DNA of 37,822 bases. It comes from a virus. The stretch covers positions 1 through 37,822 of IMG/VR virus record IMGVR_UViG_3300031851_000065. The stretch is one strand, 5' to 3'. This document shows, one piece after another, positions 4,578-37,822 of this stretch; the first letter of the stretch is position 1; every line of letters begins with the position of its first letter. Below the pieces are notes generated by a model that did no database searches, was not told the origin of the DNA, and worked only from the letters and a program-made list of their open reading frames with translations. Position numbers and translations under genes: made by a program.

Positions 4578-4883
4578 ATGACTGAATCTGTAGAACTTAA
4601 TCTAATGTATAACCTCCTGTCCAAGGGGGACTTTGTTACTGTAAACTTTGGTGACTGTGTGTGTTCCGACAGATCTCGGACTCTCATGGTTACAAGCGGT
4701 GCCCGTACTGTGAAATGTTCATGGGCTAAGGGTGGCCGCATCAGCAGGATTATCCTGAAGAATCCCGACAATCTTGGGGGTGTGAGGTACACACTCCGTA
4801 ATGATGATGGTAAGGTATCTCTTTCCCTTGGAGATATGGCTACCCGTCTTAATAGTATTGAATATTGCAAGGGTAATAACTGA
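4578..4883 (+). CDS. Early hypothetical protein
   Basis: This 101-residue protein starts at ATG 4578 behind the repeated module CTGAAAGGAAAGACA. Much of it is beta-like (GDFVTVNFGDCVCSDRSRTLMV, ARTVKCSWAKGGRISRIILK) with three cysteines, so a small beta-barrel fold is possible. I recognise no family. It lies in the same operon, immediately upstream of the DUF932 gene. Confidence 0.7.
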   Translation: MTESVELNLMYNLLSKGDFVTVNFGDCVCSDRSRTLMVTSGARTVKCSWAKGGRISRIILKNPDNLGGVRYTLRNDDGKVSLSLGDMATRLNSIEYCKGNN

Positions 4884-4908
4884 GTTCTTAATTGAAAGGA
4901 AGACTCAA

Positions 4909-5769
4909 ATGGTTTCAACTATTCCCGTTCCGACTAATAACGTCATGGGTTCATGGGGTAAGGCATACACTACCGAGCAGGTCAGTCGCCTTGCACCTCC
5001 CCCGGTCACCGATACTCACAAGCCTAGAGATCACCACCGTCTGTTCGACATGGTGTCCAATGCCCTTGGTCGTGCTGACTTTGAACACTCAGAGCCAATG
5101 CACTACGTGGGCAACGGCAAGGTCAATGGTCAAGAAGCACCCGCCAAGTTCATGACCGTGATGAATATCAGGCACAACTCAGTCACTGATGATGTTGGTG
5201 GCATGACTATGAATCGTCAGGTGTTCATTCAGAACAGCTACGACAAGTCCATGTCCATCCAGTTGATCACTGGTATCGAGGTGTGTATCTGTTCCAATGG
5301 TCTCACATTCGGTCAGGTCGAGGGTACTATTCGACGTAAGCAGACCAAGAATGTTGAGGATGATATCTACAAGATTGTCTATGGTGGTGTGGATCAGTTG
5401 CTTGGTCAGTTCCAGTCTCAGGAGGAGCAAGTCCAGTCGCTCCAGAATACTGAGATGACCAACCGCATGGCTGACCACATCATCATGGACAGTATGAGGG
5501 CTGGTGTAATCAACCCTGCCGGTGTCAAAGATGTGTGGGATAAGTGGGACAATCCCAACTACAGTGAGTACAAGGAACGCAATGCGTGGTCCCTTGTCAA
5601 CGCATTCACTGAGCGCGGCAGAGGTCGCAGCATCTTCCAACGCCACGGGAGCAACAACAGATTGCTCGAAATTGTCAAGGATTATGCACCGGAAGCAGCA
5701 CCCAAGACAATCACATCAGGGTATGATGATGACGTTGATCAGGTGAAGACTGTCTCCTCCGACTTCTGA
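4909..5769 (+). CDS. DUF932 phage/plasmid-like protein
   Basis: At 286 residues this is the largest early protein. It starts at ATG 4909, eight bases after GAAAGGA. The segment HKPRDHHRLFDMVSNALGRA near residues 40-60, the central GGMTMNRQVFIQNSYDKS, and ITGIEVCICSNGLTFG near residues 115-135 fit the DUF932 family of phage and plasmid proteins. These have been suggested to act in DNA metabolism, but no reaction is established. The second half is helical, and the C-terminus is acidic (YDDDVDQVKTVSSDF). It is the last gene before a strong terminator, which marks the end of the early operon. Confidence 0.7.
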   Translation: MVSTIPVPTNNVMGSWGKAYTTEQVSRLAPPPVTDTHKPRDHHRLFDMVSNALGRADFEHSEPMHYVGNGKVNGQEAPAKFMTVMNIRHNSVTDDVGGMTMNRQVFIQNSYDKSMSIQLITGIEVCICSNGLTFGQVEGTIRRKQTKNVEDDIYKIVYGGVDQLLGQFQSQEEQVQSLQNTEMTNRMADHIIMDSMRAGVINPAGVKDVWDKWDNPNYSEYKERNAWSLVNAFTERGRGRSIFQRHGSNNRLLEIVKDYAPEAAPKTITSGYDDDVDQVKTVSSDF

Positions 5770-6153: not shown

Positions 6154-6438
6154 ATGGTCAAAGAGATACGTGAATTTGTAACTCTGCTTGGTAAGCGTTT
6201 CAGAACTAGACCTGAGCTAAGAGACATCAGACTAAGGGTAATCATTATTGTGTTATGCAGTTATGATGAACCGTTGTCTCATGCTTGTATCACTGAACTG
6301 CTTTCAACAACAGACAAGACTTCAAGGAGGCTTCGTTCAATACTTGTGGATACAGGTTATGCAACCGAGTCATTTAATAACAGAGAGATAATGCTTTCGC
6401 CAACACAGAAAGCGAGGGACCTTGTCATCGAGAAATAA
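6154..6438 (+). CDS. Winged helix-turn-helix DNA-binding protein, candidate lysogeny regulator
   Basis: This is a basic 94-residue protein. Residues about 30-90 read as a winged helix: a helix (LRVIIIVLCSYDE), a turn into PLSHACITELL, a recognition helix around STTDKTSRRLRSILVDTGYA, and a wing ending in SPTQKARDLV. The plan matches MarR/ArsR-type folds. AGAGGGG at 6136-6142 precedes the ATG. The gene ends inside the region just upstream of the integrase start at 6500. A small DNA-binding protein beside int is the best available candidate for a repressor, excisionase-like factor or integration regulator. No CI-like repressor is visible elsewhere. The family assignment is by pattern only. Confidence 0.65.
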   Translation: MVKEIREFVTLLGKRFRTRPELRDIRLRVIIIVLCSYDEPLSHACITELLSTTDKTSRRLRSILVDTGYATESFNNREIMLSPTQKARDLVIEK

Positions 6439-6499: not shown

Positions 6500-7570
6500 A
6501 TGACTATCCGTGTGAGAGGTACATCGTTCCAAGTGGACTTTGTACATGGGGGAGTGCGCTATCGTCGCAACAAACCCACGATGCAGGAGGCTAAGGACTG
6601 TGAGATACAGGCCAAGGCCAACCTGTTGCAGGGACTTGATCCCTTCCCTGATGAGACTCCTAAGGAGGAGACAAAGCAGGGTAAATGTTTTGGTGAGGTA
6701 TCCCAACAAGTGTATGACCTAGTGTGGTCTAAGCAGAAGGATGCTCGCAACGCTAAGAACAGGATGATGCAAGTCAGGAATGACTTAGGTGATGAGACGT
6801 TGTTGTCGTCAATCACCACCGACATTCTTGATGAGTACACCATCCAGCTTGAACGCTCTGGTAATTCTCCGGGCACCATCAACAGGAAGCTATCCGTTGT
6901 TTCCAAGGTACTCAAGCATTCTTATCGTCGTGAGGATCTGGATCGTTTGCCATACATCCCTCGTCAGGGTGAGCCACCATCTAGGTTCAGGTGGTACACC
7001 GAAGAGGAACAGAGGTTGATCCTTGAGGCATGCAAGCTCAACAACAACCCCGAGTTCTTCAGGCTGATTGTCATCCTGTTTGATACCGGGATGCGTATCA
7101 GTGAGGCTCTTGGTCTTACTCGTGACAACATCTTGTTCGATGAGAAGTTGATTGTTCTTCATGAGGGTGAGACCAAGAACGATGGAGCTAGGTCAATACC
7201 CATGACCACCCGTGTCCACCGTCTACTCAGTCAGGTGGATACAAACAACTGGTTCTTCAGTATGAACTATGATGCAGCCTGTAAGGAATGGCATGGAGTT
7301 CGAGCAAGGATCGGTATGGGTAAGGGCGACATCCTCCATGCCATGAGGCATACCTTCTGCTCTCGTCTAAGTCAGAATGGTACTGACCTCAGGACAATAC
7401 AGGAGTTGGCAGGTCACAAAGACCTTTCAACTACACAGAGGTACACCCACCTCAATACTCGCAAGCTCAAGGTTGACATCGAGAAGCTGGAGGCTTGCAC
7501 TAACATTGAAGATTTGATACCGTGTGACACGGAGCGTGACACGAGGGCCAAAGGGACTGGCCTGAGTTGA
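6500..7570 (+). CDS. int: Tyrosine recombinase / phage integrase
   Basis: This 356-residue protein has an N-terminal arm-binding region, a SAM-like core-binding domain (about residues 60-150) and a C-terminal catalytic domain. The visible catalytic residues are Arg199 (TGMRISEALGL), Lys226 (ETKNDG), His280 and Arg283 (HAMRH), His306 (GHKD) and the nucleophile Tyr315 (TTQRYTHL), which is the complete set. GGAGG (6490-6494) lies five bases before ATG 6500; a longer frame from TTG 6422 lacks such a signal. The gene is followed at once by a tRNA-like sequence, the usual neighbour of an integrase attachment site. Marine T7-like phages such as cyanophage P-SSP7 have the same order of int, att and RNA polymerase. 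Confidence 0.93.
   Translation: MTIRVRGTSFQVDFVHGGVRYRRNKPTMQEAKDCEIQAKANLLQGLDPFPDETPKEETKQGKCFGEVSQQVYDLVWSKQKDARNAKNRMMQVRNDLGDETLLSSITTDILDEYTIQLERSGNSPGTINRKLSVVSKVLKHSYRREDLDRLPYIPRQGEPPSRFRWYTEEEQRLILEACKLNNNPEFFRLIVILFDTGMRISEALGLTRDNILFDEKLIVLHEGETKNDGARSIPMTTRVHRLLSQVDTNNWFFSMNYDAACKEWHGVRARIGMGKGDILHAMRHTFCSRLSQNGTDLRTIQELAGHKDLSTTQRYTHLNTRKLKVDIEKLEACTNIEDLIPCDTERDTRAKGTGLS
7523..7541. repeat. 19-base direct repeat flanking attP, left copy
   Basis: TGTGACACGGAGCGTGACA lies inside the 3' end of int and matches 7684-7702 at 18 of 19 positions. Each copy contains GTGACA twice, 12 bases apart. The pair brackets the tRNA-like core, as expected of integrase arm-type binding sites. Confidence 0.65.
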
Positions 7571-7591
7571 ACTGTATAACTTAATCTTTAT

Positions 7592-7650
7592 CTCCGGAGG
7601 GATGGCAGAGCGGTAATGCAGCGGATTGCTAATCCGTATATCCCCCGGAG
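7592..7650 (+). other. Putative attP core: 5' part of a tRNA-Ser(GCU)-like sequence
   Basis: From 7596 the sequence reads as a tRNA 5' half. GGAGGGA is the acceptor strand and TG follows. A D-arm comes next (stem GCA/TGC with loop GAGCGGTAA), and then an anticodon arm GCGGA-TTGCTAA-TCCGT whose anticodon is GCU (serine). The homology seems to stop in the variable arm; no T-arm or matching 3' acceptor of normal form follows. CTCCGGAGGGA (7592-7602) can also pair with TCCCCCGGAG (7641-7650), giving ten base pairs with one bulged A, so a compact T-arm-less RNA is an alternative. The position between int and the RNA polymerase gene, flanked by repeats, favours an attachment site. It is probably not a functional tRNA. 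Confidence 0.7.
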
Positions 7651-7683
7651 AAAACCTTAGATTAGCTATACAATTATGCGTCT

Positions 7684-7702
7684 TGTGACACGGATCGTGA
7701 CA
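7684..7702. repeat. 19-base direct repeat flanking attP, right copy
   Basis: TGTGACACGGATCGTGACA differs from the left copy only at base 7695 (T against G at 7534). It ends directly before GGAG, the ribosome-binding site of the RNA polymerase gene, so a protein bound here could also affect that gene's expression. Confidence 0.65.
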
Positions 7703-7712
7703 GGAGCAGCAG

Positions 7713-10097
7713 TTGAAGCAATCAGACTTAGAACAAGAAATGCTGGAACGTGGGCGAGAGAGATATCGCTCTAAGGTATCTCGTGCCACTGAGTTAGGTA
7801 TCGAGTCCACTCACCCAGCCGGACAACAACTATTACAACACAGCGTTGTTGTCCTGACTGAACACTTCGAGGATTGGATCCACCATGCTCGGACTTCATC
7901 AGGACGGCAGCACCGTGTCCTTCCTCTCATTGAACAGGTGTCTCCTAAGGTAGCGGCAGCACTGACTGCTCGTGCCACCCTTGACTGCATCTCGCAGGGC
8001 AGGAAGCTCAACACCACAGCAGCAACCATCGGTGGTCTCATTGAAGATGAGGCTAAGTATGTACTGCTTAAGGATCAGTACACTGAACTATGGGCACAGA
8101 TGAACCGTGTACTTGACCGATACAAGTCAGCAAAAAACAAGGCTAAGTTCATCAACAAGACACTCAAGTTCCACGACATCGTCATGCCCCGCTGGACAAC
8201 AGACGAGCGAATACGTGTCGGTGTTGTCTGTCTTGAGTTGATGCGGCAGTCAACAGGATTGATTGAGATTGTTGCTCGCAAAGATCAGCATGGTAAATCC
8301 CTTCAATGGGTGCAGCCCTCAGATGATCTACGTGAATGGTTCAAGGGTGCCCACGCTCACTTGGAGATGCTGAACCCAGTACAGCTTCCGATGTGTGAGA
8401 CCCCCATGCCTTGGACGAATGTGTTCATCGGTGGTTACCAATCTGATGTCATCAGGAGGCGACCCCTGCTCAAGACAACGGACAAGACTCACCTTGATAC
8501 AGCAGCAGTTGCTGACATGCCAAAGGTTTACCGGGCCATCAATGCACTGCAATCAACCCCATTCAAGATCAATGACTTTGTCATGAATACGATGGAACAT
8601 TGCTGGACCCGTGGACTTGAGGTTGATGGCCTTGTCACCTCTGATGATGAGCCGTTGCCCGCCAAGCCTCACGACATCAAGACCAACGCTGAGTCACGTA
8701 AAGCATGGAGACGCAGGGCTGCCCGTCAGCACTTCGAGAATGAGCGCAAGCAATCCAAGAGGCTTCATGCTCTACGAGTGTTGAGTCTGGGTAAGAAGTT
8801 CTCAGGACAGACAATCTTTCAGCCAATGAACTTAGACTTCAGAGGTCGTGGGTACTATCAGCCACACTTCCTCAACCCTCAAGGTCCGTCCTTCGTCAAG
8901 TCATGCTTCCTGTTCCACAACCCGCAACGAATGAATGACAGTGGCGTGAAGTGGCTGCACATCCACATTGCTAATTGCTTCGGCAATGACAAGCTGTCGT
9001 ATCAGGATAGGATCAAGTGGACTGAACAGAACAAGAAGATGATCCTGAGTGTTGGCAAGGATCCGATTGGCAACATGGAATGGACCAAGGCAGATGATCC
9101 TTGGTTGTTCTTGGCTGCGTGTAATGAGTTCTACAAGATGTCAACGACATCAAACTTCTACACTCACCTGCCTATTGGAATTGATGCCACCAACCAAGGC
9201 TTGCAGATATACGCCATTGTTCTGCGAGATATCGAGAGCGCATTGGCGACCAACTGCCTACCTTGCGAGCTTCCTAACGACATCTATCAGCAAGTATGTA
9301 ATCAGGTATACAAGCTGATAGAGAATGACAGCAGCGAATATGCAAGGGGGTGGCGTAAGTTTGGACTCACCCGGAAGACTACCAAGCGCAGCACCATGAC
9401 CCTTCCGTATGGCTCAACGTTCTTTGCATGTAAGCAGTACACTGCTGAGTGGTTCTATAGTGAGGTTGCTAAGGGTAGAGAGAACCCCTTCGGTGAAGAG
9501 ACCTATACTCCCTGCAACTGGTTGGCTGAAAGAATATGGGAAGCAATCAGCATGTCCGTCCGGGCAGCTCGACAGGGAATGGACTGGCTCCAGTCTGTTG
9601 CTGCGGTGTGCATCGACAACGGTGTTGTTCCTCAGTGGACCACACCTCTTGGTCTTCCTGTGAGAATGCACTACGAGAAGCAGGCACATCTTAACATCAA
9701 GACCAACGTGTTCGGTGTGATTAGGCAGACAAGAATTCGCAAGGATAGTGGTGACCCCTCCAAGAGAAAGTCAGTCAACTCAATGGCTCCCAACTGGGTA
9801 CATAGTCATGATGGTGTTGGTGGTCTACTTGGTGAGTCAGTGAACCTTGCACTTGATCACGGTGTTCATGACTTCATGGCTATACATGATGACTATGAAA
9901 CACATGCACCGCACGTTGCCACCATGTCAGCGGCAGCAAGACAAGCAACAGTCAACATATTTTCAGGAAATGCATTGGCAGATACTCACCGTGAGATATC
10001 TGTTTTGTTACCATCTGGGGTGGACCTACCAGAGCCACCACCTCAGGGCGATCTAGATGTATCGCAAGTTCTAAAGGCTCAGTATTACTTCTCATGA
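7713..10097 (+). CDS. T7-like single-subunit DNA-directed RNA polymerase
   Basis: The 794-residue enzyme would transcribe phage genes independently of host polymerase. The catalytic landmarks are visible: DFRGRG at 375-380, motif A with Asp491 (GIDATNQGLQIYAIVLRD), motif B with Lys558 and Tyr566 (TRKTTKRSTMTLPYG), and motif C with Asp726 (AIHDDYETHAP). It is shorter than T7 RNA polymerase (883 residues), the shortening being in the N-terminal promoter-binding part. The start is most likely TTG 7713, six bases after GGAG (7703-7706); ATG 7740 lacks a binding site. The gene begins ten bases after a putative integrase arm site and 62 bases after the tRNA-like attP core. Confidence 0.95.
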   Translation: MKQSDLEQEMLERGRERYRSKVSRATELGIESTHPAGQQLLQHSVVVLTEHFEDWIHHARTSSGRQHRVLPLIEQVSPKVAAALTARATLDCISQGRKLNTTAATIGGLIEDEAKYVLLKDQYTELWAQMNRVLDRYKSAKNKAKFINKTLKFHDIVMPRWTTDERIRVGVVCLELMRQSTGLIEIVARKDQHGKSLQWVQPSDDLREWFKGAHAHLEMLNPVQLPMCETPMPWTNVFIGGYQSDVIRRRPLLKTTDKTHLDTAAVADMPKVYRAINALQSTPFKINDFVMNTMEHCWTRGLEVDGLVTSDDEPLPAKPHDIKTNAESRKAWRRRAARQHFENERKQSKRLHALRVLSLGKKFSGQTIFQPMNLDFRGRGYYQPHFLNPQGPSFVKSCFLFHNPQRMNDSGVKWLHIHIANCFGNDKLSYQDRIKWTEQNKKMILSVGKDPIGNMEWTKADDPWLFLAACNEFYKMSTTSNFYTHLPIGIDATNQGLQIYAIVLRDIESALATNCLPCELPNDIYQQVCNQVYKLIENDSSEYARGWRKFGLTRKTTKRSTMTLPYGSTFFACKQYTAEWFYSEVAKGRENPFGEETYTPCNWLAERIWEAISMSVRAARQGMDWLQSVAAVCIDNGVVPQWTTPLGLPVRMHYEKQAHLNIKTNVFGVIRQTRIRKDSGDPSKRKSVNSMAPNWVHSHDGVGGLLGESVNLALDHGVHDFMAIHDDYETHAPHVATMSAAARQATVNIFSGNALADTHREISVLLPSGVDLPEPPPQGDLDVSQVLKAQYYFS

Positions 10098-37384: not shown

Positions 37385-37686
37385 TGAAACCTATGATGAT
37401 CCATTGGACTGACACGACTGGTCAGGGAGATCAACAGACGTGGTTGTCATCCGGTGAAGTAGCCGAGATGGAGCCATGTGCCATGGTGACTATTGGGTTC
37501 CTACTTGTGGATGATGAGGACTTTATTGTCGTTGCCGCCACCAAGAGCATGGACCCAGATGATGATGCATTTGGCAACGTCAACGCTATTCCTAAATGTT
37601 GCATTACTGCTGTGAGTTGTCTGTGCTGTGAAAAGCCAGAATCCTGTGCATCAAAGTGCAACGTTGTTGCCGAGGGTGCGGACTGA
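37384..37686 (+). CDS. Terminal Cys-rich hypothetical protein crossing the repeat boundary
   Basis: This 100-residue protein has a beta-like N-terminal domain (MIHWTDTTGQGDQQTWLSS, MVTIGFLLVDDEDFIVVAA) and a C-terminal segment with seven cysteines (KCCITAVSCLCCEKPESC and SKC). The cluster could bind metal ions or form disulfides. The right terminal repeat begins at codon 68, exactly at the start of the Cys-rich part, so its 3' third is duplicated at the left end. The ATG overlaps the preceding stop. Confidence 0.7.
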   Translation: MKPMMIHWTDTTGQGDQQTWLSSGEVAEMEPCAMVTIGFLLVDDEDFIVVAATKSMDPDDDAFGNVNAIPKCCITAVSCLCCEKPESCASKCNVVAEGAD

Positions 37687-37822
37687 TTTTGGTAAAAAAA
37701 TCTGACAGGGTTATATTATTGCGGCGCGTCCGATAATCCCCCGTGGCCCCACCACCGAAAACAAACGTTTGTTTATATCAACGATCGTTTACATTGGCAC
37801 GCCCTATGTCACACGTTTGATT
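37585..37822. repeat. Right direct terminal repeat
   Basis: This is the second copy of the 238-base terminal repeat. It begins inside the coding sequence of the last gene (37384-37686, codon 68 onward) and ends just after the first leader palindromes. The copy at this end keeps the gene intact, while the left copy holds only its 3' third. Confidence 0.85.

Follow-up and report, generated by a model that had tools for sequence, protein, structure and literature searches.

T7-like phages of cyanobacteria carry attP motifs that match the first half of a tRNA-Leu gene, and deletion mutants show that their integration requires both the integrase gene (int) and attP (PMC8776855). Islands with a fragment from this side of the gene form a small class in Islander, in which 159 islands have a 5' tDNA fragment versus 3760 with a 3' fragment (PMC4383910). 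In the Fionnbharth-type mycobacteriophages, a tyrosine integrase splits an essential host tRNA gene, paired arm-type sites flank the core, and, within a group, some close relatives rebuild the tRNA whereas others bring a complete one (PMC10865867). The tRNA of the Pseudomonas phage LUZ100 was suggested by its authors to have come from imprecise excision following an earlier integration (PMC10134795). Here, we analyze IMG/VR record IMGVR_UViG_3300031851_000065 over its full 37,822 nucleotides (hereafter, the window), in which the 5' part of a tRNA-Ser(GCU) gene very probably serves as the attP of a T7-like phage.

Results

The window comprises the genome of a T7-like phage (37.8 kb; G+C content, 49.4%). 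A 238-bp direct terminal repeat (1-238 and 37585-37822; 237/238 identical) indicates that the record, though classed as linear, is a near-complete genome. Elsewhere in the window, a 129-amino-acid open reading frame in the early region (2476-2865) matches Pfam Destabilase, an invertebrate-type lysozyme (E 2.4e-8), and a 322-amino-acid frame at 4801-5769 contains DUF932 (E 1.4e-10). The features around the site are as follows.

6500..7570, plus strand: tyrosine integrase gene (int); likely start ATG at 6500, open frame from TTG at 6422
7524..7543, plus strand: left arm; GTGACACG occurs twice in direct orientation with a 12-bp spacing, forming putative arm-type integrase sites; overlaps the end of int
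7573..7595, plus strand: leader (X), left arm of the inverted repeat and putative promoter of the rebuilt tRNA
7596..7637, plus strand: 5' part of tRNA-Ser(GCU), the attP identity block; 42 nt, exact tRNA match
7596-7602, plus strand: acceptor 5' strand
7605-7619, plus strand: D arm
7621..7637, plus strand: anticodon stem-loop GCGGA-TTGCTAA-TCCGT, the presumed core, with strand exchange predicted in the loop for the window phage
7628-7630, plus strand: anticodon GCU
7636..7672, plus strand: right arm (Y) of the inverted repeat, pairing with the acceptor strand and leader (ATCCCCCGGAG ... AGATTAGCTATACA)
7685..7702, plus strand: right arm; GTGACACG and GTGACA with a 12-bp spacing form putative arm-type sites; kept in attP-bearing relatives
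7713..10097, plus strand: T7-like RNA polymerase (RNAP) gene, the right-hand neighbor of attP; Pfam RNA_pol E 1.7e-83, RPOL_N E 6e-19

The int product matches Pfam PF00589 (E 3.5e-24) and the PHROG integrase profile (E 7e-52), and one relative (L003) has a stop codon just 5' of the position that corresponds to the window's ATG at 6500. Its catalytic residues R199, K226, H280, R283, H306, and Y315 are invariant across 8 relatives. The R-K-H-R-H-Y set is complete in the integrase adjoining the half-tRNA, which begins 25 nt beyond the end of int. The RNAP is approximately 33% identical to the RNAPs of T7-like pelagiphages and of LUZ100.

A bacterial tRNA-Ser(GCU) half beside int

An acceptor strand, a D arm, and an anticodon arm with anticodon GCU had been recognized here in a preliminary description of the window, and all are real, forming an exact 42-nt match at 7596-7637 on the plus strand. 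That description had proposed a search against tRNA-Ser(GCU) genes, and this recovered an uninterrupted, alphaproteobacterial match: the 42-nt block occurs letter for letter inside complete tRNA-Ser(GCU) genes of 2 other viral contigs, and its first 40 nt are exact in the genomes of 28 species (of 84,980 in GTDB r220), always in tRNA-Ser(GCU). The matching genomes are titled as alphaproteobacteria or subgroups thereof, except for one titled as Pseudomonadota only. Given the exact block in the tRNA-Ser(GCU) genes of both viral contigs and cellular genomes, a chance match is ruled out.

This uninterrupted phage/host identity of 40 to 42 nt takes in the whole anticodon loop and breaks off right after the anticodon stem, at 42 to 43 nt in the window and at 40 nt in relative L002, which is 98% identical and already deviates beyond that point. 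The loss of tRNA character noted previously is thus genuine but was placed too far downstream, in the variable arm; identity stops before that arm. The proposed check with a tRNA finder and a covariance model likewise agrees with the absence of a T arm: ARAGORN found no tRNA, and hence no complete cloverleaf, in the window, and the Rfam tRNA model yields a fold without T arm and variable arm, the lack of which keeps its score (26.8 bits) under the gathering score of 29. A full-length tRNA at this site is ruled out by these searches. A minus-strand match to the Magnesium-II riboswitch (E 0.45) was below threshold and was discarded.

Relatives exchange the tRNA half

Scans of IMG/VR provided a clade of close relatives, four of which have the same tRNA-Ser(GCU) 5' half in the same place, with one base changed in L060 (integrase identity to the window of 98% in L002, 76% in L060, 59% in L062, and 57% in L141). 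L153, a distant T7-like phage whose integrase is 25% identical, also has a tRNA-Ser 5' half with one base changed. Other relatives differ: in L004 and L061, the minus strand carries a tRNA-Glu(UUC) 3' half, on the int side of the core; L086 and L098 have the 5' half of tRNA-Leu(UAG); and L003 and L059 are without the core, with the integrase frame kept. Direct reading of the cyanophage P-SSP7 shows a tRNA-Leu(UAA) 5' half, GGGAGTGTGGCGGAATTGGTAGACGCGCCGGACTTAAAA, in the same place. Wherever a half is kept, it lies to the int side of the anticodon arm, and whether this is the 5' or the 3' half simply follows from the strand of the tRNA. The apparent rule is that the crossover falls in the anticodon arm and the tRNA sequence lies to the int side of it.

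Separately, a second exact copy of an anticodon-loop 8-mer is present in the int-RNAP gap for 15 of the 33 integrase-adjoining tRNA genes (L059-L137 and named phages), all on the plus strand and including those of LUZ100, HTVC119P, and MedDCM S28-C10; the copy in L081 may be a mere duplicated tRNA fragment. Other tRNA 8-mers recur much more rarely (as a rule, approximately 2 to 3%).

Arm repeats, leader, and inverted repeat

Pairs of GTGACA at 7524/7536 and 7685/7697, each with a spacing of exactly 12 bp, flank the core on both sides and account for 4 of the 18 plus-strand copies of this motif in the whole window. Pairs and spacing are conserved in L002, L062, L141, L004, and L061, one motif of the right-hand pair being inverted in the last two. 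The repeats are partly lost in L003, which lacks the core as well as a portion of the left arm, and wholly lost in L059, together with the core. This layout is that of arm-type integrase sites around a core, to which the integrase presumably binds.

Within the leader, whose position is conserved in L060, L062, and L141, there is a -10-like TATAAC at 7575-7580, and every close relative that keeps the site has an AT-rich, -10-like hexamer 15 nt 5' of G1. The suggestion that the phage supplies the promoter of the tRNA was not upheld, in that a sigma-70 scan detected no consensus promoter at the site, this hexamer notwithstanding. Nor was an intrinsic terminator found at the site. A terminator between core and RNAP occurs at approximately 10 of 24 family sites and never in the window's clade, and we do not regard it as a general family feature.

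An imperfect inverted repeat (arms at 7573-7603 and 7636-7672) encloses the half-tRNA, which lies in its loop. Relative to shuffled sequences, folding gives z scores of -3.4 for the window, -5.4 for L060, -1.6 for L062, -2.2 for L141, and 0.1 for P-SSP7. The left arm of each lineage pairs best with the right arm of the same lineage, and pairing outside the tRNA is beaten by 3 (window), 0 (L060), 6 (L062), and 44 (L141) of 1000 shuffles; together, these results indicate that the inverted repeat covaries. It is probably maintained. Because L003 and L059 lose the inverted repeat along with the att core, it appears to be tied to attP and not to RNAP expression. The tRNA-Glu half of L004 and L061 is also surrounded by an inverted repeat.

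Related prophages and in silico joining

Among 385 alphaproteobacterial genomes, G484 contains a full T7-like prophage with the same gene order and a related integrase (40.6 kb; G484:C1:77657-118263, L155/L164-L167). Copies of CAGACTCAAAATCTG, the tRNA-Leu(CAA) anticodon arm, bound it on either side. The host 5' half of this gene lies 0.36 kb before RNAP and the host 3' half after int, and joining the two ends in silico restores a complete tRNA. A second prophage (G899:C7:119995-162665, L168/L177) has the same geometry with tRNA-Leu(UAG), and thus both are joined at the anticodon arm, with the host 5' half facing RNAP. Each of these phages carries a whole tRNA-Leu with the same anticodon as the split host gene, which fits the tRNA-dependent lysogeny of mycobacteriophages (PMC10865867) and constitutes an apparent case of such lysogeny outside the actinobacteriophages. 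Since they carry a whole tRNA and not a 5' half, the rebuilding step proposed for the window phage rests on the cyanophages and on in silico joining. When the window and SAR116 locus L019 are joined at the anticodon loop, only the phage-5'/host-3' product contains a complete tRNA-Ser(GCU), in agreement with the earlier proposal that the phage holds the 5' part and that the tRNA is rebuilt with the host 3' part.

Searches with the integrase at an E value of ≤1e-30, run without a positive control, detected no prophage of the window phage in 136 SAR116-order genomes, nor in the 28 tRNA-matching species and 15 genomes of another order; an empty result of this kind is no evidence of absence. The integration junctions identified are those of the distant relatives in G484 and G899. 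Short phage matches and eight weaker genome matches provided nothing usable.

A candidate host

Of the 136 SAR116-order genomes, 4 contain the exact tRNA-Ser block and 19 the exact tRNA-Glu block of L004 and L061. Both blocks are present in 2 SAR116 genomes, the only ones with both among the 28 species having the Ser block, and this co-occurrence makes a marine alphaproteobacterium, perhaps of SAR116, our best guess for the host. One SAR116 locus (L017) has an extra, truncated 5' copy of tRNA-Ser(GCU) with its promoter, 1.1 kb upstream of the intact gene (329-370 and 1466-1553). We disfavor an att scar as its origin: the promoter and neighboring gene are duplicated as well, so the arrangement reads as a tandem duplication.

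Discussion

We are confident that 7524-7702 is the attP of a temperate, or at least integration-capable, T7-like phage, with a crossover in the host tRNA-Ser(GCU) gene and with the phage carrying the 5' half. This reading is based on sequence identity to bacterial tRNA genes, the layout of the site, its conservation among relatives, and two natural prophages with related integrases in which the geometry is the same; the attP assignment of the preliminary description thus gains support from the host tRNA identity, the adjacent and catalytically intact integrase, and the paired arm-type repeats. For the window phage itself, we infer the strand exchange, the use of promoters, and the marine alphaproteobacterial host. 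Bound to GTGACA arm sites to the left and right of the core, the integrase would exchange strands within the anticodon stem-loop of the host's tRNA-Ser(GCU) gene, which would lie in the same sense as int, the phage holding the 5' half on the integrase side of the crossover. Integration would then join the phage leader and phage 5' half to the host 3' half, producing a complete tRNA-Ser(GCU) beside int, and would leave the host promoter and host 5' half upstream of the phage RNAP gene. The predicted junctions are phage leader, 5' half, and host 3' half on one side and host leader, 5' half, and GTATATCCCCCGGAGAAAACC on the other.

Alternatively, the sequence could be what decay or truncation has left of a phage tRNA gene, namely a tRNA-Ser lacking the T arm, functional in its own right or without function, with integration occurring elsewhere. 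The Rfam fold is indeed that of a tRNA without a T arm, its acceptor stem partly paired, and a perfect acceptor complement (TCCCTCC) is kept in L062 and L141. We nonetheless consider such a gene highly improbable: the 5' half is perfect relative to hosts while the sequence past the anticodon stem diverges fast, even among relatives that are 97 to 98% identical; its location beside int and between conserved arm repeats fits an attP; and relatives exchange it for another tRNA half on the opposite strand. There is similarly very little probability that the element is an RNA hairpin ahead of the RNAP gene (an attenuator, for instance, or a site of RNase III processing) whose use of tRNA sequence is a coincidence. 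In favor of this reading, an RNase III site immediately precedes gene 1 in T7, the hairpin has a z score of -3.4, and its arms covary between lineages. However, L003 and L059 are without the hairpin and have an intact RNAP gene, P-SSP7 has no hairpin, L153 has no visible acceptor complement, and a hairpin leaves the 42-nt identity to hosts unexplained. The hairpin may instead be an added function on top of attP.

That the site is a former attP, now out of use in a purely lytic lineage, is distinctly unlikely. In its favor, integration of T7-like cyanophages is transient and does not lead to stable lysogeny (PMC8776855), and two relatives of the window phage retain the integrase frame after losing the site; but the catalytic residues of the integrase are intact, and core, arm repeats, and spacing are conserved across integrase identities of 57 to 98%.

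An extension of the attP reading, which we regard as rather unlikely, is that integration swaps promoters: RNAP would be preceded by the leader promoter and the hairpin as long as the phage is free, whereas in the prophage the leader promoter would drive the rebuilt tRNA, the host promoter would face RNAP, and the hairpin would sense integration. If so, the prophage would retain only the inner hairpin stem before RNAP, and relatives with an opposite-strand 3' half would be without such coupling. By leaving the host tRNA promoter facing the phage RNAP, the 5' geometry makes the puzzle of unstable lysogeny in T7-like phages directly testable.

The cyanophage precedent and the Islander counts together make the attP reading the correct recognition of a minority arrangement that had already been described, and bear out the initial remark that a phage-borne 5' part is unusual (PMC4383910, PMC8776855). 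The tRNA is new for this kind of site, and the host group probably is as well, such that 5'-half attachment extends from the tRNA-Leu of cyanophages to tRNA-Ser(GCU) and to T7-like phages of a marine alphaproteobacterial host. One integrase clade has moved between a 5' half and a 3' half on the other strand and in some members has lost the site, and farther relatives have a whole replacement tRNA.

Among known systems, P-SSP7 and S-TIP37 share with the window the order int, attP, and RNA polymerase, as well as an attP matching the first half of a tRNA (PMC8776855), but they use tRNA-Leu in cyanobacterial hosts, and in P-SSP7 there is no hairpin around the site and the integrase is approximately 23% identical to that of the window. 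Elements of the 5' class of Islander resemble the window in supplying the 5' side of the restored tRNA and in displacing a 5' fragment, and crossovers centered on the anticodon are a recognized class (PMC4383910); these elements are mapped bacterial islands, whereas the window is a free phage genome with a predicted site. Fionnbharth and similar mycobacteriophages have a core of approximately 10 bp and a whole phage tRNA that replaces the broken one (PMC10865867), in contrast to the half tRNA of the window phage, which should rebuild the gene; farther T7-like relatives have whole tRNAs. Finally, LUZ100 corresponds to the window in gene order, in its integrase and RNAP (32 to 33% identical), in having a tRNA beside int, and in its temperate features (PMC10134795), but its tRNA-Leu is whole, on the minus strand, and upstream of int, with a bare anticodon-loop core downstream.
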